A DNA stretch of 64,000 nt. Origin: Candidatus Sumerlaeota bacterium (GTDB taxonomy: Bacteria > Sumerlaeota > Sumerlaeia > MWCT01 > JAUWMI01). Below are positions 18,594 through 63,871 of the stretch, piece after piece. The DNA lies in NCBI GenBank assembly GCA_030613245.1, contig JAUWMI010000013.1, forward strand, positions 1 to 64,000. Direction: 5' to 3'. The position numbers and the translations under genes were made by a program. Position 1 is the first letter of the stretch. The number at the start of each line of letters is the position of its first letter. The notes below the pieces were generated by a model. The model searched no databases. It worked only from the letters and a program-made list of their open reading frames with translations, and was not told the origin of the DNA.

Positions 18594-21500
18594 ATGACCC
18601 TGACGATTGACCAGTTGCAAGCACACGGATTTTCGCCTCGCGTGATTGACCTGTGGAAGGCAACCTACGCTGAGACTCTCCTTCCACTTCAAGAGGAAGC
18701 CGTTACCCGCTACGGTTTTCTCCAGGGCAAAAATCTGATCGTGTTTGCCCCAACCTCGTCAGGCAAAACATTTCTGGCTGAACTTGCAGCCGTGAAACAC
18801 CTGGAAGCAAATCGCCGTGTAATCTTTCTCGTCCCGCCCAAAGCCCTGGCAGAAGAGAAGTATAGCGCATTCACCAGCCTCTATGGCCCCCTTAGCCTCC
18901 GCATTGTGATCTCCACAAGGGAACGCCCCGAAGCAGATGCCCTTGTCCTTGACGGCCGCTATGATTTGCTGATCGCGGTCTATGAAAAAATGAAATCCTA
19001 CCTGGTATTGCGTCCCGAGATATTGCAACAAGTCGGTCTGGTCATAGTTGACGAAATTCAGATGATGGGCGATAGCACGCGCGGTGACATTCTCGATCTG
19101 CTTCTCACCAAAATTACGCAGTCTCCCTCTCAGACACAATTCATCGGGCTGTCAGCAGCTCTGGGCAACCCTGAGCGCATTGCCTCATGGCTCAGCTGCG
19201 ATCTGCTGAACTTCAATAAACGACCCGTGGAACTACGCGAAGGCGTCTTTAACCTGGCCGACAATTACTTCCATTATCGCTGCTTCAATTCAGGCAAAGA
19301 AGGCCGCGAACGCCTCTTTGTAGGAGGGGATAATGTAGGGGCGGTTAGCGAACCGCCCCTACTCCTGCCTGAAGGCGACGAAGCGTTCGCGCGCGAACCC
19401 ATCCTGGGTCTCGCACAGTACCTGGCCGAACAAAAGAACGAACAGGTACTCATCTTTGCCCCCACCCGTGCCGTGACACGGGATTGGGCATATCAGATTT
19501 CCCAGCGTGTCCGCCTCCCGGCAGTCGACGCAGCCCTCCAGGCCTTAAGCGTCTTCGAAGATTGCCATTCGAAAGAGCTGCTTGCCGCATGTTTCCAGGT
19601 CGGCGTTGCCTTCCACAACGCGGAACTCTCGTGGGACTTGCGCCAGATGGTTGAAGACCATTACAATAGCGGAGCCATTCGTATCCTCATCTCCACCTCC
19701 ACTCTTGGCCAGGGTGTTAACTTAACCGGCAGAAATGTAATTAATTGCCTGCAGATGGTAGACACCGATCCATGGACAGGGTCGTACACCTTCGTTCCTC
19801 TTAGCCGTCACCGCTTTAGAAACCAGGGAGGACGGTCGGCACGCTATCTGAAGGAGGAGAAGTTTGGCCGCTCAATTCTGATGGGCCGAAATGCCGCTGA
19901 AGTCGAACGGCTGATGCACGACTACGTTGCCGCTGAGCTGGAGTCCATTGCGCCCCCCATGTCACTGAAGAAACTCGACCGCTACCTGCTGGATCTCGTC
20001 TCCTCAAAAATCGCTCTAACACGCCGCACCTTGCTCGAGTTCTTCCAGCGTACCTACACCGGCTCTATAGAGACAGATTATGATCTGTCCCTACCGTTCC
20101 AATCATGGACTCGCCGGACCGACGCCTCATCCGGCCGAGATGCCGAAACGAGGAGTCGTGCCGATAAATCGGAGGTTCTGCGTGAATGGATTGACAAAGC
20201 AGTGGCGCAATGCCTCGCGGGCAATCTGCTGATTCAATCTGGAATTCAAGAAGGAATTAGCACTGAGGACGAAGAGATCGAAACCACGGGCCTCGGTACC
20301 ATTGTCGCCACTACTGGTCTAAATCCCACTACTGTACAGCGCTTTCATCGCTGGCTGCAATCTAACCCTGGCCCTGACGTCAGCCCCCTGGCCATATTGC
20401 TTGTTGCTACCTTTACCCCTGATGCCTACGACTTCCCGATACCTCTCTCCTATCGCGAGAGAACTTCAGCCAATTACATTACACAGGTTCGCACCTTACT
20501 CGGCTATGACGATTCGTCTCAGGCAGACACGGCCAGAACCGATGAAACTCCTGTGCAGGGTCTTGACGACTCCGAAGATACACGGACGCGTACCGTCAGT
20601 ACAGACAAGCCCGGCAGTGCGGGCAAGCCCATGACCACAGCAGACGACTACGTTCGTGGACTGATTGAAAAGAAAGGTGGGTATCGCGTTGAGGATCTTG
20701 AGGCACTAAAAAAGGCACTTCTTCTGGACATCTGGATTCAGAAAACTGATACGATGACCATCGAAAATACATACCATCTTTTTTCAGGCACCATAGGAAA
20801 TCTAGCTTCACACTTCCAGTGGCTTCTCCAAAGCCTCGCATCAATGATCGCCTCGCTTGGTCTTGCACCTACATTGCGGCAGCGAGTTGCCAATCTTGCG
20901 GAACGGCTAATCTACGGCGTGGACGAGGACGGAGTTGGGTTGACCAGGCTGCGCGTCGAGGGACTCTCGCGAGCATATATCCAGGCGCTCATCCGCGAAG
21001 GATATAACACGCCCCAGAGCCTTGCCGAAGCACAGGTGGCCGGTCTGGAGCAGTGGATCCCAACGCGCGTGGCACAACTACTAATTCAAGAGGCAAAGGC
21101 ATTCACTCAGCGTGCCTACCAGAAAGACAGGGTCGTTACAGAATCCATGATTCAGACGAGGCCCGCCAGGGCGGGTCGCCCAGAGCGCATACAAGTGCCG
21201 CTCGGACGAGTCCCAGCACAACCAAAGGCCGTCCCAAAAGGCAGACCCGCAAAGCCTAAAAAACGCGCAAAGCCCGGCCAGGAACCAGTAACTCTGGAGA
21301 TTGACTGTAATGCACCTGGCACGATTCTATTTTGCGGAAAGAAGGTTCAGCTCACCCGGCTTCCTTACAAACTGCTTCTCCTGCTCGCCTCCAGGCCAAT
21401 GGTCGGCATCCGATACGAAGATCTGGACGACAGCCTGTGGGAAGATGCGAAAGTGGAACGCCAGCAGGTCTCTGCGCATAAGTCAGCCATTATCAAAGCT

Positions 21501-21626
21501 TTTGCAACTATCATTGGCAAGCGGCAGGCCTCACGGCTTATCAAAACCCACAGCGGATTTGGCCTTTCCTTGCAGATCAACTCCCAGGATATCCACATCA
21601 CCCCTATTTGTAGGGAAGGATCATAA
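18594..21626 (+). CDS. Ski2-like DExH helicase fused to an OmpR-type winged helix
   Basis: The 1010-residue protein has helicase motif I PTSSGKT (Lys58), motif II DEIQ (153-156), motif III SAA, a STSTLGQGVNL motif and a motif VI variant NQGGRSARY. That order fits superfamily 2 Hel308/Brr2/Ski2-like enzymes. Residues about 790-870 look like the helical domain with a helix-hairpin-helix. The last 100 residues (LLLLLASRPMVGIRYEDLDD to SGFGLSL) are a transcriptional-regulator C-terminal winged helix, an unusual fusion. Palindromic repeats are translated inside it at residues 248-257, 492-501, about 672-678 and 856-863, and its last codons and stop come from another copy. Probably DNA or RNA unwinding in repair; unproven. 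Confidence 0.8.
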   Translation: MTLTIDQLQAHGFSPRVIDLWKATYAETLLPLQEEAVTRYGFLQGKNLIVFAPTSSGKTFLAELAAVKHLEANRRVIFLVPPKALAEEKYSAFTSLYGPLSLRIVISTRERPEADALVLDGRYDLLIAVYEKMKSYLVLRPEILQQVGLVIVDEIQMMGDSTRGDILDLLLTKITQSPSQTQFIGLSAALGNPERIASWLSCDLLNFNKRPVELREGVFNLADNYFHYRCFNSGKEGRERLFVGGDNVGAVSEPPLLLPEGDEAFAREPILGLAQYLAEQKNEQVLIFAPTRAVTRDWAYQISQRVRLPAVDAALQALSVFEDCHSKELLAACFQVGVAFHNAELSWDLRQMVEDHYNSGAIRILISTSTLGQGVNLTGRNVINCLQMVDTDPWTGSYTFVPLSRHRFRNQGGRSARYLKEEKFGRSILMGRNAAEVERLMHDYVAAELESIAPPMSLKKLDRYLLDLVSSKIALTRRTLLEFFQRTYTGSIETDYDLSLPFQSWTRRTDASSGRDAETRSRADKSEVLREWIDKAVAQCLAGNLLIQSGIQEGISTEDEEIETTGLGTIVATTGLNPTTVQRFHRWLQSNPGPDVSPLAILLVATFTPDAYDFPIPLSYRERTSANYITQVRTLLGYDDSSQADTARTDETPVQGLDDSEDTRTRTVSTDKPGSAGKPMTTADDYVRGLIEKKGGYRVEDLEALKKALLLDIWIQKTDTMTIENTYHLFSGTIGNLASHFQWLLQSLASMIASLGLAPTLRQRVANLAERLIYGVDEDGVGLTRLRVEGLSRAYIQALIREGYNTPQSLAEAQVAGLEQWIPTRVAQLLIQEAKAFTQRAYQKDRVVTESMIQTRPARAGRPERIQVPLGRVPAQPKAVPKGRPAKPKKRAKPGQEPVTLEIDCNAPGTILFCGKKVQLTRLPYKLLLLLASRPMVGIRYEDLDDSLWEDAKVERQQVSAHKSAIIKAFATIIGKRQASRLIKTHSGFGLSLQINSQDIHITPICREGS
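19335..19362. repeat. GTAGGGG palindrome, core GGTTAGCGAACC (in coding sequence)
   Basis: Inserted in frame in the helicase between motifs III and IV, read as VGAVSEPPLL. Confidence 0.85.
20067..20094. repeat. GTAGGGA palindrome, core GATTATGATC (in coding sequence)
   Basis: Diverged left arm (ATAGAGACA). Read in the helicase as IETDYDLSLP. Confidence 0.8.
20606..20629. repeat. GC-rich palindrome in helicase gene
   Basis: AAGCCCGGCAGTGCGGGCAA: arms GCCCG/CGGGC. Read as KPGSAGK, next to a low-complexity linker. Confidence 0.5.
21158..21183. repeat. GC-rich palindrome in helicase gene
   Basis: GGCCCGCCAGGGCGGGTC: arms CCCGCC/GGCGGG. Read as RPARAGRP in the linker before the winged helix. Confidence 0.55.
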
Positions 21627-21637
21627 TCTGTCCCTAC
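21610..21637. repeat. GTAGGGA palindrome supplying a stop codon
   Basis: Left arm GTAGGGAAGGATC, right arm ATAATCTGTCCCTAC. The helicase frame runs into it and terminates at TAA 21624-21626, so the last five residues are repeat-derived. Confidence 0.75.
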
Positions 21638-21744: not shown

Positions 21745-21867
21745 ATTAATAGTCACGACAGCAGGGGGTTTAATGCGCCTGAGGCGCGTTAAGTCATGTT
21801 AAACCCCTATATTTGTGACGTGGCAATCAGGGAAGGCCTGTCTGCTACAGACAGAGATTTCCAACTT

Positions 21868-21909: not shown

Positions 21910-23610
21910 ATGGACTCTGAAGAAAAACAGTATTTACGGAAAATCGGGTCATACCACCTGATTTTTTTACTGGGCAGGGGCGGAACCGGAGAGGTCTACA
22001 AGGCCTTCGATCCTGGACGTAACCTCTATGTAGCAATCAAACTATACTCCACTGCCATTATGTCCGACGAAGAGGCCCACAAGGTCAGGCTGCGCCAAGC
22101 TGTAAGCTCTTTTGAGCGAGAGGCGCGGGCCATTTCCGCTCTGACCCACCAAAATGTGGCAAAGATCTATACCGTCAGATCTACTGACGATGGCATACCC
22201 TACCTCGTAATGGAGTACGTTGATGGCCCGTCCTTGTCTGATCTGATCCGCAACAAAGCGGAACTCACGTACTCACAAATTGCGGATCTAATGGCACAAG
22301 CTGCAATGGGACTCCAAGCCGCGTATCAGCTCAAGATTCTTCATCTCGACATCAAGCCGGGCAACATCATGCTCACCTCTGATAACGTGGTAAAACTGGT
22401 TGATTTTGGCCAGGCAAAGTTCCTCATGCACGAAACAGGGCCAGCAGGCGGCCCCATGGATCCGGAAACGCCTAGTACGGGCGAACGGCCGGTCACCCCT
22501 ACACTCGGTACCCCCCGTTATATGTCACCTGAACAGGGGCTTGGACAAACTGCAGGACACCCAGCTGCCCCGTCGGGTGACCATCGCTCCGACATCTACT
22601 CGCTCGGTGCAACATTCTACCATCTCCTCGCCGGTCAACCTCCCTATGATGCTACAACCGCGCAGGAACTCATCCAGCAACATGTCGTTGGCACCTACGT
22701 CCCAATTTACCTGGTCAACCCCAAGGTGCCAGGTGGCCTGTGCGAAATTGTCGCAAAGATGATGGCCAGGGATCCCAATGATCGCTATCAGGACTACGAT
22801 GAACTCATTCACGATCTTAACCAGGAAAAACTGACTCTTCTATCTAAGGAAGAAGGCGATTTTGTTCCCTACACTGCATCTTCTGACGATTCGTTCCAGA
22901 CTCACTCTGATACCGACTTTGTAGAGACAGATCATGATCTGTCCGTGCCGCCCCCATTGAGCGCACAGCAATTCTCCAAACACTCACGACTGGCACCAGA
23001 GAAACTGCGCAGGATTCTGGATGTACAGGTTGGGCCACCTGCGAAAAGTCCCGTGGGGCGCTCTATATTCATCGGCTTCGGCGTACTGCTGATGTTGTTA
23101 GGCTTCTGTACTGTTGTGTGGCCACATTGGTGGAGCTATTCTACTCCTGATTCTTTACGGCCAGGCACGGCACTTAAGCCGCTCGCCTTGTTTGTAGATC
23201 GGCTGAAACAATTGGGCGTTCCCCATAGAGATGGCTCTTCGCGAGAATCTTATTTGGCCCAAATTGCAGCAACGAAAAAGCGAATGCAGAAACTGCGCAA
23301 CGCCTTCCTGACGTACGAAGCCGAAATGGGAAAGGCTGCCAATTCACTTAAGGAACTCGCTCGAGCCCGCTATGTTGAGCCAGATGCTCTTGCAGACACG
23401 TGGGGCAATAACATCGTGCTGCTGCGGTTTGAGCGCAAATTCTTTTCATACGGATTGGACGGCACAGAAAATACAACTGACGATATCTTGCTCGACTCCT
23501 CGGGCCGTTTCCTCAAACTCCCCGCTGAAGACATCATCCATACCATGGAATCTCAGACACGGCAAATAGAGTCTGATTCGGCACCTATGACAGCACAACC
23601 TTTCCAGTAA
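21910..23610 (+). CDS. Membrane Ser/Thr protein kinase with a pseudopilin-like C-terminal domain
   Basis: The eukaryotic-type kinase domain shows the glycine loop LGRGGTGEVYKA, VAIK, the catalytic loop HLDIKPGN, VDFGQA and GTPRYMSPEQ. After a linker carrying a translated palindrome (VETDHDLSVP) there is one transmembrane segment (IGFGVLLMLLGFCTVVW). The outer part (RMQKLRNAFLTYEAEMGKAA to FSYGLDGTENTTDDI) resembles the C-terminal half of type II secretion G pseudopilins. The frame is open from ATG 21796, but residues before 21910 come from repeat DNA, so I prefer the ATG here (567 residues); neither start has a strong ribosome binding site. Substrate unknown. Confidence 0.8.
   Translation: MDSEEKQYLRKIGSYHLIFLLGRGGTGEVYKAFDPGRNLYVAIKLYSTAIMSDEEAHKVRLRQAVSSFEREARAISALTHQNVAKIYTVRSTDDGIPYLVMEYVDGPSLSDLIRNKAELTYSQIADLMAQAAMGLQAAYQLKILHLDIKPGNIMLTSDNVVKLVDFGQAKFLMHETGPAGGPMDPETPSTGERPVTPTLGTPRYMSPEQGLGQTAGHPAAPSGDHRSDIYSLGATFYHLLAGQPPYDATTAQELIQQHVVGTYVPIYLVNPKVPGGLCEIVAKMMARDPNDRYQDYDELIHDLNQEKLTLLSKEEGDFVPYTASSDDSFQTHSDTDFVETDHDLSVPPPLSAQQFSKHSRLAPEKLRRILDVQVGPPAKSPVGRSIFIGFGVLLMLLGFCTVVWPHWWSYSTPDSLRPGTALKPLALFVDRLKQLGVPHRDGSSRESYLAQIAATKKRMQKLRNAFLTYEAEMGKAANSLKELARARYVEPDALADTWGNNIVLLRFERKFFSYGLDGTENTTDDILLDSSGRFLKLPAEDIIHTMESQTRQIESDSAPMTAQPFQ
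22921..22948. repeat. GTAGAGACA palindrome, core GATCATGATC (in coding sequence)
   Basis: In frame in the juxtamembrane linker of the kinase, read as VETDHDLSV. Confidence 0.8.
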
Positions 23611-23640: not shown

Positions 23641-23668
23641 GTAGGGACAAATTGTAATCTGCCCCTAC
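23641..23668. repeat. GTAGGGACA palindrome, core AATTGTAATC
   Basis: Mixed arms: left GTAGGGACA, right CTGCCCCTAC. Intergenic. Confidence 0.75.
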
Positions 23669-57804: not shown

Positions 57805-59340
57805 GTGGTGAATAAGCGCCTGCTGAGGCGTCCGGAGCCAAAGAAACAATCTGACCGGATACGGCCCTCTGAATCTTTGATGCACGATGTCAAGCAGATC
57901 GAGCGCCGTCGGCTGCGTCTGGTCATCGCCATCCCCACACTGGTTGTCCTCTTCACCATTGGTGTGGGGATTTTGAACTATCAGGTGGCAGATTACTACG
58001 CCGGCAAAGCCGACAATCAGGCTCTCAAGTCGGTGCTCGATGTCGTGGCCGTCAGGATTCTATTATTCTCGCTCGTGGTATCTATTGTTGCCCTGGCATT
58101 TGGCATGGGCCTCGCCTACTCGATTATTCATCCGATCAGGCGCATGACAGAAACCGCCCGCTCGATCGCCACGGGCGACCTCTCGCTTAAGGTCGAAATC
58201 CCCTACACCAACGAGATTGGCGAGCTCGGCAAGAGCTTCAACACCATGATCGACTATCTCAACGATATCTTCCAGGAGCGCAACCGATATATCCTTGAAA
58301 GCTTCTCTGGCGGGCTGATCACCACCGACATCCGGGGCAATATTACGACCATGAACTCCGCAGCGGAAAAAGTGTTGTGCAGCTCCGTGGATACTGCGGT
58401 CGGACGTAACCTGTTGGAGATCGTGAAAAAATGGGACGAGGAGGGCGCGTTTTACGAGATACTCTCTGACATTATCAAAGAGCAACGCCCAACATCGTCG
58501 CGAGAAATCCTCTTCACCTCTCCCCGGCAAGAAATCTACTCTCTATCCGTGTCAACTTCCCTCCTGAAGGACAAGTCGGGAAATCCCTTCGGCTGCGTCG
58601 TAAATTTCCGAGATCTTTCGGCGTTGAAATCCTTCCACACACAGATGCAACGCGCCGACCATCTGGCAGCCATTGGAACCTTTGCCACTGGGATTGCTCA
58701 CGAAATTCGTAATCCCCTCAGCTCCATTAGAGGCATTGCCCAGCTCCTCGCGGAAGATTTCGCAGAAGGCGAAAAGGGGAAACAGTACGTTAATCAGATC
58801 GTCCGAGAGGTTGACCGCCTGGAAAAAGTTATTCGCTCCATCCTTGACTTCTCTCAGCCCGAGTCCACACGACCCGTACCGTGCGACGTCAACCAGCTCC
58901 TCGCCGGAGCACTCTCCCTGTGTAAGAGCCGCTTCGGGTCCGAGAATAATTGCGATTTCAGGATCAGGGAAACCTACGGCGTCCTTCCCCTCTGCAGGCT
59001 CCAGGCCGATAAAATCACCCAGGCGTTTCTGAACATTATCCTTAATGCCTTCGAAGCTACCCCACCCCAGGGTACTATCATCCTGCGCACCTATTTCGAT
59101 GAACGCGAAAAGAAAGGCAAATCCATTACTATTGAGATTGCCAATACCGGCTCCACTATTCCTGAAAGTGAAATCGAGCGCATCTTCGAGCCTTTCTACA
59201 CAACAAAGGATACCGGCACTGGTCTTGGCCTTCCTATCGCCTATCAGATTGTCTCCTATAATCAGGGAACCATCGAAGTCAGAAGTATTCAAGACTGGAC
59301 GAAAGTCATTATGAAATTCCCGGCGATTGAAGATCGCTAG
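57805..59340 (+). CDS. HAMP-PAS sensor histidine kinase
   Basis: The 511-residue protein has two membrane segments (about 37-56 and 78-108), a HAMP domain (IHPIRRMTETARSIATGDLS), a PAS domain (about 175-285: GGLITTDIRGNITTMNSAAE), HisKA GIAHEIRNPLSSI and HATPase DTGTGLGLPIAYQI. There is almost no periplasmic loop of known type (about 20 residues), so sensing may be by PAS or membrane. Its regulator is probably the sigma-54 protein at 61332, beyond the opposite-strand gene. GGAGG precedes the GTG start by 10 bases. Confidence 0.88.
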   Translation: MVNKRLLRRPEPKKQSDRIRPSESLMHDVKQIERRRLRLVIAIPTLVVLFTIGVGILNYQVADYYAGKADNQALKSVLDVVAVRILLFSLVVSIVALAFGMGLAYSIIHPIRRMTETARSIATGDLSLKVEIPYTNEIGELGKSFNTMIDYLNDIFQERNRYILESFSGGLITTDIRGNITTMNSAAEKVLCSSVDTAVGRNLLEIVKKWDEEGAFYEILSDIIKEQRPTSSREILFTSPRQEIYSLSVSTSLLKDKSGNPFGCVVNFRDLSALKSFHTQMQRADHLAAIGTFATGIAHEIRNPLSSIRGIAQLLAEDFAEGEKGKQYVNQIVREVDRLEKVIRSILDFSQPESTRPVPCDVNQLLAGALSLCKSRFGSENNCDFRIRETYGVLPLCRLQADKITQAFLNIILNAFEATPPQGTIILRTYFDEREKKGKSITIEIANTGSTIPESEIERIFEPFYTTKDTGTGLGLPIAYQIVSYNQGTIEVRSIQDWTKVIMKFPAIEDR

Positions 59341-59442
59341 GTCCTGCCGACCAACGGGCGGTCAGCCGACCGCAATTCTGTAACAAACCACAAGTACATA
59401 ATTGCGCCTTGGTGCTACGAGCAAATAGTTCGTCGGCGAGCT

Positions 59443-59461
59443 GTAGGGCCAGCGCCCCTAC
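59443..59461. repeat. Coreless GTAGGGCC palindrome
   Basis: GTAGGGCCAGCGCCCCTAC: constant arms with almost no core. It is the shortest form in the window. Confidence 0.55.
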
Positions 59462-59487
59462 ATGCAACAAGGCCAACCCCTGGTATG

Positions 59488-61146
59488 TCAGGAGTGAGGG
59501 GCCTCGACCCCATGTTGCTCAATCTCTTGAATTACTGATTGTGGTATGGGATGATGGTAGGCACGAGCCAGCTGAAGATGCTGAGCTGCACGACGATAGT
59601 CTGGAGGGTCGAGCCGAGCGTAGCAGAGCGCCAGGTTGTAATGCGCATTTGCATACCCAGAATTTTCCCACAGCGCTTTGCGCAGCTCAAGGATTGCGCG
59701 TGCATAATCGTGCTGTTGCATGTAGATGACACCCAGATTATTGCGCGCAACGTAATTATGAGGCATGTACCCGATAGCTTGCTCAAACAGCTCGCGAGCC
59801 CTGGCCAGCTCGCCCTGGCGCAGATACAAGGCCCCCAGATTGGTTAAGGTTGACGTACCCCGCGGCTCGCATGCGTAGGTGGCAGGCCAGAGCGTCTCGT
59901 CCCGACTCCAGATAGGATTCCTATGAATGGTCAAATACGTGTAGGCAAGGAGCTGAATACAACACATGCTGATAATCACGGTGCAGGCCTGTCTGGCACG
60001 AGATGTTCCGTTCGCAACATGAAACTTCTTTAGAATATACTGCAGAACAATGGCCGCCAACAGTGCAAACCCGACCATTGGAAAGTAGAGATAGCGTTCA
60101 GCCACAGGATTAGCAAAAGGCAGGAGCTGAGCCACTGGCAGTATCGCAACAATCACCCACAGCAGGGCAAGGGCCTGCAGTGCCATTTTGCGGCGTACCA
60201 GAAGCACAATCAGTGCCAGATAAACGCCAAGTCCGACCATCCCAAGCAGAAGCACTGGATGGCTAAGCCGCACAATCGGCTGAAACGCATATTCTGCACA
60301 TAATTGAATAGGCAATAGCAGCAACGACCAGTAAAAGAGAAAAAAACGCGGGAAATTCATCTGAGCAATAGCAAAGCTGCCTCCAAAATACGCATAGCGC
60401 GTTGGGTAGTAGGGAACCATAACGAGAAACCGGATAATCCCATAGAGCATAAGCGCGCATGCGAAGGCAAAGGCGATCCAGAAGCGCGATCGCGCAGAAA
60501 GCAATGGCAGGTCAAGCAGCTTGCGGAACAGATTCAACTCAAGCAGTCCAATCAGCACGGGCAGCACAATAGCGGATTCCTTGGCAAAAACAGCTGCCAG
60601 ATAACAGAGAATCGGCACTGCAGCAAGCGGAAGGCGCATCTGTGCACCTTTGCGCAGCAGGATATAGCTCAGCATCGCCAAGACGCAGAAGCCCGTCGCC
60701 AGCAGATCTTCGCGGTAGGAAATCACATTTACTGCTTCCGTCTGGACCGGGTGTAGAGCGAAGACGATTGCACCATACAGAGCCAAGCCGCGCTCACCAA
60801 GGAACTCTCGCAGCAGCAAAAAGACTGCGATCACAGTTGCAAGATGCAGCAGCACGTTGGTCAGGTGGTAGCCGAAGGGCAGCTTTCCCCAGAGAGAAAA
60901 ATCAGCGAAGTAGCTCAGCGTCACAACAGGCCGATAGCTGATTTCAATCCCCTGATCAAAATAGTGGCGCGAGAGCAAAAGCGGTAGATTTCCCGGTGAG
61001 GTAATCAGGCGGTTGAATTCAATGGTGTCATGGTCATCAAAGACAAACTTGTGAAACAGTGTGTTGCCATAAGCCACCCAGACGAGCAGAATGAGCAGCA
61101 AGATTTGGTTGACAGGCTTTGCCAGAATCCTCTCTAATAGAGCCAT
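59488..61146 (-). CDS. TMTC-like GT-C glycosyltransferase with C-terminal TPRs
   Basis: The 552-residue protein has about 10 membrane segments (residues 10-400) and an N-terminal loop with the acidic pair FDDHDTI typical of GT-C mannosyltransferases (DD/DxD type), plus ISYRPVVTLSYFADF and LHPVQTEAVN, which match the PMT/TMTC-like family. The C-terminus holds three TPRs (LTNLGALYLRQGELARAREL, ARNNLGVIYMQQHDYARAIL, YNLALCYARL). Such proteins transfer sugars from polyprenyl-phosphate donors to secreted proteins, with the TPRs presenting substrate. Acceptor unknown. Confidence 0.85.
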   Translation of the reverse strand: MALLERILAKPVNQILLLILLVWVAYGNTLFHKFVFDDHDTIEFNRLITSPGNLPLLLSRHYFDQGIEISYRPVVTLSYFADFSLWGKLPFGYHLTNVLLHLATVIAVFLLLREFLGERGLALYGAIVFALHPVQTEAVNVISYREDLLATGFCVLAMLSYILLRKGAQMRLPLAAVPILCYLAAVFAKESAIVLPVLIGLLELNLFRKLLDLPLLSARSRFWIAFAFACALMLYGIIRFLVMVPYYPTRYAYFGGSFAIAQMNFPRFFLFYWSLLLLPIQLCAEYAFQPIVRLSHPVLLLGMVGLGVYLALIVLLVRRKMALQALALLWVIVAILPVAQLLPFANPVAERYLYFPMVGFALLAAIVLQYILKKFHVANGTSRARQACTVIISMCCIQLLAYTYLTIHRNPIWSRDETLWPATYACEPRGTSTLTNLGALYLRQGELARARELFEQAIGYMPHNYVARNNLGVIYMQQHDYARAILELRKALWENSGYANAHYNLALCYARLDPPDYRRAAQHLQLARAYHHPIPQSVIQEIEQHGVEAPHS

Positions 61147-61331
61147 GATTCAGTCGAGAAAGAGGGTGAGAAACCGACTTGTTCAGATTTCAGCTATGAC
61201 ATCATTTCTCTGACACTAAAGTCAATACGAATTTCGGTGCGGCGATCCCAGTAGTCAGGTGACCAGCTGGCGTGTAACAGAAAGATCCTGCTCATGATAA
61301 GCACATATTCCAGAGGGAGAGGTGACTCACG

Positions 61332-62717
<1,386 letters not shown>

Positions 62718-62961
62718 TGCCAGTAACAGAAATTGTGAAGTTCGTTACACAATAACAGCCAAAAGCCCCATTCCGATCTCTACGCAGGTGAGAGATCACC
62801 ACGCGCACAGAATTTGTATTCGCTCTAACCCCTGAAAAATGAATCCTCTATGTCCGGTATGGCGCTTGCCTGCATAACGCTTATGCTATGGCTGGTTTCT
62901 GGCACCCATATTGCTCCACTCACATAATGAACATTTAATCACGCAGAGGAGGTGAATCAGT

Positions 62962-63342
62962 ATGAAGCGGAAGAAAACAAAAGGTTTTACCCTGGTCGAG
63001 ATCATGATCGTCGTAGCAATCATCGGCATTCTGATCGCGATTGCCGTACCGGGATTTCTGAGAGCAAGAGAGAATTCCCGTGGAAGGGCCTGCCAGGAAA
63101 ACCTGCAGAAAATTGATGGTGCTAAGGAGCAATGGGCGCTGGAAAACCGGCTGTCGAACGCCAGTACTGTCCCTTCCGGTTGGTTGGACGACGTGGACAT
63201 TTGTGGTCCCAATGGTTATATTAAGCGGACTCCCAACTGTCCATCCGGCGGAAGCTATACGCCGAATAACATCGGAACCGATCCGACCTGCTCGATCGGA
63301 ACAAGCAATTCGCCATTTACTGCGCACACTCTTCCTAACTAA
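62962..63342 (+). CDS. Type II secretion/type IV pilus pseudopilin
   Basis: The 126-residue protein has a short basic leader and cleavage/methylation site K-GFTLVEIMIVVAIIGILIA, the N-terminal hydrophobic helix, and a globular domain with CQENLQKIDGAKEQWALENR and the loop DICGPNGYIKRTPNC. The prepilin peptidase would cut after Gly8. A conserved pair of Cys (CGPNG and NC) and a Gly/Ser-rich tail match pseudopilins of PVC and Omnitrophota-like genomes. GAGGAGGTGA precedes the ATG by eight bases. Confidence 0.9.
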   Translation: MKRKKTKGFTLVEIMIVVAIIGILIAIAVPGFLRARENSRGRACQENLQKIDGAKEQWALENRLSNASTVPSGWLDDVDICGPNGYIKRTPNCPSGGSYTPNNIGTDPTCSIGTSNSPFTAHTLPN

Positions 63343-63430
63343 GAATGGCACATAGGCAATCAGCGGGATGGGCGATAAATCGGGCACCCTGTTTTATCGC
63401 CCATTTTTCTTCACGCTCGTACAGAAACCC

Positions 63431-63871
63431 ATGGAAAGCACAATGACAAATGGCATAATACAGGCGCTGCCCCGAACACTGTGTGGAAAGCGACGTGCCC
63501 ATTACCATGGCTTTACCCTCGTTGAGATTATGATTGTCTCTGGCATCTTTTCGATCATCCTTGCCATTGCACTGCCCACGTGGCTCAGGCAGCGCGAAAA
63601 CAGCCGCAGCAGAGCCTGCCAGGAAAATCTCGCGAAAATTGATGGCGCGAAGGAGCAATGGGCACTGGAGAATCGGCTGTCGAACGGCACTACTGTCCCT
63701 TCCGGTTGGTTGAGCAATACGGACATTTGTGGTCCCAATGGCTATATTAAGCGCGAGCCCAACTGTCCAGCCGGTGGAACCTATACGCCAAACGCAATCG
63801 GGTCTCCTCCTTCGTGCTCCTACTACGGTTTAGAGCTATATGGGATGCCAAAGCACCAAATACAACAATGA
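63431..63871 (+). CDS. Second pseudopilin, paralogue of the preceding gene
   Basis: The 146-residue protein has a long leader (about 28 residues before GFTLVEIMIVSGIFS), a hydrophobic helix and a globular domain nearly identical to that of the preceding gene (AKIDGAKEQWALENRLSN, STDICGPNGYIKREPNC-like). The two genes share high identity only downstream of the helix, which points to duplication or gene conversion. The start could also be ATG 63443; both lack a strong ribosome binding site. Confidence 0.85.
   Translation: MESTMTNGIIQALPRTLCGKRRAHYHGFTLVEIMIVSGIFSIILAIALPTWLRQRENSRSRACQENLAKIDGAKEQWALENRLSNGTTVPSGWLSNTDICGPNGYIKREPNCPAGGTYTPNAIGSPPSCSYYGLELYGMPKHQIQQ

Follow-up and report, generated by a model that had tools for sequence, protein, structure and literature searches.

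A membrane Ser/Thr kinase from a Sumerlaeota bacterium with a GspG-like extracytoplasmic head and a predicted calcium site

Introduction

The outer domains described for bacterial receptor kinases form, to our knowledge, a limited set. A gene in a 64,000-nucleotide stretch of DNA from a Candidatus Sumerlaeota bacterium (contig JAUWMI010000013.1, hereafter the window) raises the question of whether the head of a pseudopilin, a component of type II secretion machines, can serve as such a domain on a protein kinase. A previous sequence-only reading of this locus described a Hanks-type kinase followed by one membrane span and an outer domain resembling GspG, and proposed that the kinase could sense or join a secretion or pilus machine. 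In a search of open-access literature, no description of a kinase bearing a pseudopilin-like domain of this sort was found. Here we report an analysis of the kinase, of the homology of its outer domain, and of the distribution and genomic context of its relatives within the class and beyond.

Results

Domain organization of the window kinase

The 566-aa protein is organized as a Hanks-type kinase domain, a single membrane span and a GspG-head-like extracytoplasmic domain, in this order. The same frame is also open from an upstream ATG at 21796, giving 604 aa, and the versions starting at ATG 21796 and at ATG 21910 both end at 23610. The features of the gene are as follows.

21910..23610, + strand: membrane Ser/Thr kinase with GspG-like outer head, 566 aa plus stop; homologues found
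21952..22791, + strand: Hanks-type kinase domain, Pfam Pkinase over residues 15-294 (E 7.5e-41)
23056..23124, + strand: single membrane span, about residues 383-405, from hydrophobicity; prepilin-peptidase motif absent alongside
23269..23532, + strand: GspG-head-like extracytoplasmic domain, about residues 454-541, from sequence profiles
23446..23487, + strand: calcium-loop motif SYGLDGTENTTDDI, residues 513-526, exact PERCAL match and predicted Ca2+ site

The layout proposed by the sequence-only reading was thus borne out by the Pkinase match for the kinase, by hydrophobicity for the span and by the family profiles described below for the outer domain, and the motif texts that it had quoted for the latter are present in the protein. 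All features by which Hanks-type kinases are recognized are found in the window kinase, namely the glycine loop (from residue 22), the VAIK lysine (residue 44), the catalytic aspartate (residue 147) and DFG (residue 165). Its HRD motif reads HLD, with the arginine replaced by leucine, and in one relative (L129) HRD is missing altogether. The one strongly hydrophobic stretch, at about residues 383-405, is preceded by a stretch rich in Lys and Arg, which is consistent with a cytoplasmic location of the kinase domain, and the C-terminal 160 residues would be outside the membrane.

A cytoplasmic Hanks kinase joined through one span to an extracytoplasmic input domain is also the arrangement of the PknB/Stk1-type PASTA kinases (NF033483). 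The window kinase differs from them in that no PASTA family was detected in its Pfam scan, in that the NF033483 model gives 228.5 bits on residues 15-354 against an equivalog cut-off of 450, and in that its ectodomain is pseudopilin-like. Matches were also obtained with 34 PADLOC families, the PD-T4-6 models spanning residues 12-309 with a best E of 3.4e-67, as would be expected if the protein were an anti-phage defence kinase of the PD-T4-6 or MADS type on which the head is incidental. We hold this explanation to be very improbable, since the best PADLOC matches cover the kinase domain common to such kinases and not the head, the window kinase follows the family structure across the class in the kinase tree, and its Pfam-scanned neighbours show no defence theme.

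Homology of the outer head to GspG

Compared on its own with the Pfam family T2SSG, the head gave marginal matches (E 0.053 in one scan; E 0.012 and 16.1 bits, at a cut-off of 21 bits, in another). Used as a single query against PDB sequences it found no match better than E 1.2, and it was absent from the 32 matches of T2SSG over its own genome at E up to 1. A single head sequence is insufficient to prove a match to GspG; at the level of sequence comparison, the profile of its family does prove it.

To collect that family, a search with the outer part and the span was run, and 19 of 99 genomes matched, the own genome included. Among the 18 other matches, 13 have the kinase-span-head order, three break off at the end of a contig, one (L019) lacks a kinase, and one from another phylum (L023, E 5.5e-4) is of pilin type, its start resembling that of a prepilin. 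When a profile built from 17 heads was run against all PDB sequences, 13 chains were hit at E up to 10, and eight of these are GspG. The top five hits are all GspG (E 2.1e-5 to 0.0044), while the remaining three GspG chains, at E 0.41-0.54, are interspersed with unrelated chains, the five non-GspG hits having E values of at least 0.43. T2SSG itself is matched by 13 of the 17 heads at E up to 1, with a best E of 9.6e-5. Alignment of the head profile with 16 GspG proteins of the class by hhalign gave 98.4% (E 7.2e-15, score 82.75) and covered the helix, the DxWG strand and the calcium loop; in the controls the reversed profile scored 13.5 and 40 column shuffles at most 15.9.

The match is more than the loop, because a score of 53.9 survives removal of the loop, as compared with at most 14.8 over 40 shuffles. 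This result bears on the explanation that the calcium loop arose by convergence on an unrelated domain. The PERCAL motif, to which the loop belongs, is present in unrelated proteins (PMC3396595), but a match that survives without the loop and spans the helix and the DxWG strand leaves convergence scarcely credible. The resemblance to GspG noticed earlier is supported as homology by the PDB profile hits, the T2SSG matches of family members and the hhalign comparison with its shuffles, and the outer domain is a homologue of the GspG head, GspG being the major pseudopilin of type II secretion. AlphaFold2 models from single-sequence input were poor (mean pLDDT 42 and 52 in two runs), so that the fold match rests on sequence profiles.

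GspG has a prepilin peptidase site, G-F-x-x-x-E, together with an N-terminal pilin helix. In a regular-expression test, this motif was absent next to the span from the window kinase and from 21 other kinase-head entries, and the window kinase is therefore predicted not to be a pilus subunit. Shared with GspG/EpsG/PulG/XcpT (Pfam T2SSG PF08334; PDB 3G20) are the C-terminal part of the long helix, the DxWG strand and the loop SxGxDGxxxTxDD. Unlike GspG, the window kinase has no prepilin peptidase motif, its span follows a kinase domain, it is not encoded beside secretion genes, and the stretch from the helix to DxWG is shorter, as the profile alignment shows for the kinase heads.

A predicted calcium-binding loop

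The loop GLDGTENTTDD is an exact match to the PERCAL consensus, G-x-D-G-x-x-[GN]-[TN]-x-D-D. In the pseudopilin 3G20, this motif coordinates calcium via P114, D117, V119, T122 and D125, where T122 is counted twice, for a side-chain and a main-chain contact (PMC3396595). Three of these ligands, D117, T122 and D125, align with D517, T522 and D525 of the window kinase. Asp 496, 517, 524 and 525 and Gly 515 are invariant across the 17 aligned heads, and Thr 522 is kept in 82%. When nine more heads were compared by eye, D517 and D525, the positions of calcium contacts in 3G20, were kept in all 26; the penultimate aspartate of the loop is lost in two members (L101, L140). The exact loop motif is common to the PERCAL proteins, which include PepA peroxidases and pseudopilins (PMC3396595); the PepA peroxidases share the loop with the window kinase, not the head. 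According to a review, secretion is strongly impaired when the aspartates through which GspG coordinates calcium are altered (PMC10574481). The conserved ligand positions suggest that the head is probably ordered by calcium.

A stricter explanation would make the head a Ca2+ sensor whose loop loses its ion when external calcium drops, so that the head unfolds and the kinase is switched. It would account for the invariance of the Ca2+-ligand aspartates, and a designed PERCAL-motif peptide has a Ca2+ affinity in the tens of micromolar (33-79 uM; PMC3396595). We nevertheless consider strict sensing improbable, as we infer that the site would be full at usual external calcium, as similar loops are kept on proteins without a signalling domain, and as the ion is described as stabilising in pseudopilins (PMC5131608). 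Because the affinity of the motif is micromolar, Ca2+ may be a permanent structural ion and not a signal.

Distribution and phylogeny within the class

Of the 39 class genomes, 23, representing 10 of 14 families, encode kinase and head as a single frame; the kinase domain is cut short in two of these (G030 and G035), and in three further genomes (G001, G003 and G038) the contig ends within the head. In the kinase tree, 21 head bearers make up one side of a branch (support 93/95). After the addition of headless paralogues, one side (88/91) is composed of 22 head bearers and L191, a headless kinase from G022 that is nested among them, and a tree constrained to keep the head bearers as a group of their own is worse by 12.35 log units (AU p 0.064). 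The head bearers are thus not strictly one clade once headless paralogues are included. One gain of the head and one loss would explain L191, provided that the root lies on the other side. The head profile detected no credible head in five headless class paralogues (L188-L191 and L197) and four kinase relatives from the genome contig scan, the best E being 0.095, for a 61-aa frame on the opposite strand of L190. The tree of the heads (58 heads, 83 columns) is poorly resolved and leaves room for differing numbers of head acquisitions.

Outside the class, the head profile matched at least 36 of 347 genomes at E up to 1e-8, a count that may miss some since at most 13 candidates per genome were scored. 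The kinase is absent from 20 stretches of 19 of these 36 genomes, which include every matched frame of at least 400 aa.

The head on other proteins

Beyond the kinases of the window type, related heads occur on other proteins, among them the following.

L110, L113, L115-L118, L120-L122: likely pseudokinases with span and GspG-like head, HRD aspartate lost
L150, L151, L152, L153, L162: DUF4388 (by Pfam), one span and GspG-like head (by profile), in five genomes outside the phylum

Eight divergent kinases, plus fragments, bear the head and are without the HRD aspartate and without DFG at its usual place (in three entries the DFG flag falls elsewhere, as judged by eye); their motif losses mark them as likely pseudokinases. 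The complete ones form a clade apart from the window kinase in the kinase tree. The five DUF4388 proteins have in common with the window kinase an inner signalling-type domain, one span and the same kind of head, and differ from it in having no kinase and in belonging to other phyla; T2SSG passes its own cut-off in two of them. DUF4388 is, we assume, the PATAN domain. Eight kinase-less membrane proteins with the head have a long inner part that looks disordered by eye. The prepilin motif was not seen near the span in 22 kinase, nine pseudokinase, eight kinase-less and five DUF4388 entries.

A GspG-like head also lies within an alpha-2-macroglobulin identified by Pfam (L157, about residues 771-854), and other carriers are a DUF3352 protein, a FecR protein and a sulfatase-modifying-factor protein. 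Two proteins of the own genome, one spermidine-synthase-like and one DUF3352-like, match the profile up to position 76, not reaching the loop. Judged by this range of carriers, the head seems to be a mobile module of the extracytoplasmic side.

Two side observations concern these and similar proteins. A GspG-like head occurs at about residues 796-877 of L158, which resembles L157 by eye. The FecR, spermidine-synthase-like and (weakly) DUF3352-like proteins of the own genome (L030, L032 and L038) resemble T2SSG in their C-terminal part.

Genomic context and the link to secretion and pilus machines

No secretion or pilus family was detected by Pfam among 39 genes adjacent to the kinase in 20 regions (two in the window, 37 in the 19 other regions), where 13 of 34 genes in a scanned subset had no family match whatever at E up to 1e-8. 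The neighbours of the window kinase are a helicase and a sugar transferase. A prepilin-like start was seen in one of 267 frames across the 20 regions. Gene content next to the kinase is not conserved; leaving the kinase aside, the commonest neighbour cluster is present in six of the 20 regions, at varying distance. The context thus gave no support to the earlier proposal of a kinase that could sense, or be part of, a secretion or pilus machine. The sequence-only reading had also placed pseudopilins at 62962; the genes there are pilin-like, as 62962 and 63368 match N_methyl, but N_methyl is their only family in Pfam and they fall below the GspG cut-off. They lie 39 kb from the kinase.

As a separate observation, the region 57805-63871 of the window encodes a histidine kinase with PAS and HAMP domains, a sigma-54 response regulator and the two N_methyl pilin-like proteins, and looks like a pilus locus of the PilS/PilR type.

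Secretin homologues match in all 39 class genomes (nine pass the GspD cut-off) and strong GspG (E up to 1e-15) in 35 of 39, with two strong GspG genes (C86, C84) in the own genome, and co-occurrence with type II secretion therefore cannot discriminate. The four genomes without GspG at E up to 1e-15 include two that bear the kinase, G031 and G036 (each 80% complete).

These data bear on the explanation that the head is a decoy pseudopilin, which would attach to the assembly machine of type II secretion or of type IV pili, or to the pseudopilus as it grows, so that the kinase would report or control the activity of the machine. Such docking would fit the likeness of the head to GspG in the profiles, the same head type joined through one span to DUF4388 in five genomes outside the phylum, and the secretin homologues throughout the class. 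PATAN response regulators have been linked to the type IV pilus in cyanobacteria, where the motor PilB1 is the proposed binding partner of PixE (PMC7690835). We regard the decoy explanation as doubtful, however, given the lack of secretion or pilus families among the adjacent genes, the single prepilin-like start, the absent prepilin motif, the helix-to-DxWG stretch shorter than that of GspG, the kinase bearers G031 and G036 lacking GspG at E up to 1e-15, and the similar heads on proteins with no evident tie to a machine.

In three of the 20 regions, from three families, a TPR protein recognized by Pfam is encoded directly upstream of the kinase, and these related proteins make a possible, weak partner candidate.

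L129, 3201-4946: related TPR protein, directly upstream of the kinase
L133, 5298-7211: related TPR protein, directly upstream of the kinase
L137, 10382-12049: related TPR protein, directly upstream of the kinase

Separately, an FHA-GGDEF protein (L142, 8078-8989) adjoins the kinase of G036. FHA domains bind phosphothreonine, and this protein could be a target of the kinase.

Proposed role of the head-bearing kinase

We propose, with a probability of about 0.68, that the window gene encodes a receptor-type Ser/Thr kinase that crosses the membrane once and has, as its extracytoplasmic input domain, a trimmed GspG head lacking the pilin N-terminus, the Ca2+-ordered head controlling the kinase. 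The role of the head as the input domain is inferred from the topology. In the proposed mechanism, the head would fold around bound Ca2+ in the periplasm and, once ordered, would bind a periplasmic partner or report the loss of Ca2+; binding would alter dimerisation or posture through the span and thereby change the activity of the cytoplasmic kinase. The head-bearing kinase would not act as a pilus subunit.

Retention of a pseudopilin-derived head by a kinase in 10 of 14 families of the class would add a new type to the input domains of receptor kinases, and the heads on pseudokinases and DUF4388 proteins make a link between pilus-type machines and signalling directly testable. More speculatively, freed heads of major pseudopilins might constitute a general Ca2+-ordered periplasmic docking module on kinases, pseudokinases and PATAN proteins, which would read, from the membrane, the state of a machine that builds a pseudopilus and so provide secretion or pilus machines with a feedback of their own through phosphorylation.

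Finally, a dispersed 28-bp palindrome, GTAGGGACAGATTATAATCTGTCCCTAC, is present on both sides of the kinase gene, at 21610-21637 and 23641-23668, and occurs in the window also at 20067, 34942, 43746, 48929 and 57593. Against a backward control with 0 matches, the genome contains 44 forward and 45 reverse matches to this palindrome with up to 3 mismatches.
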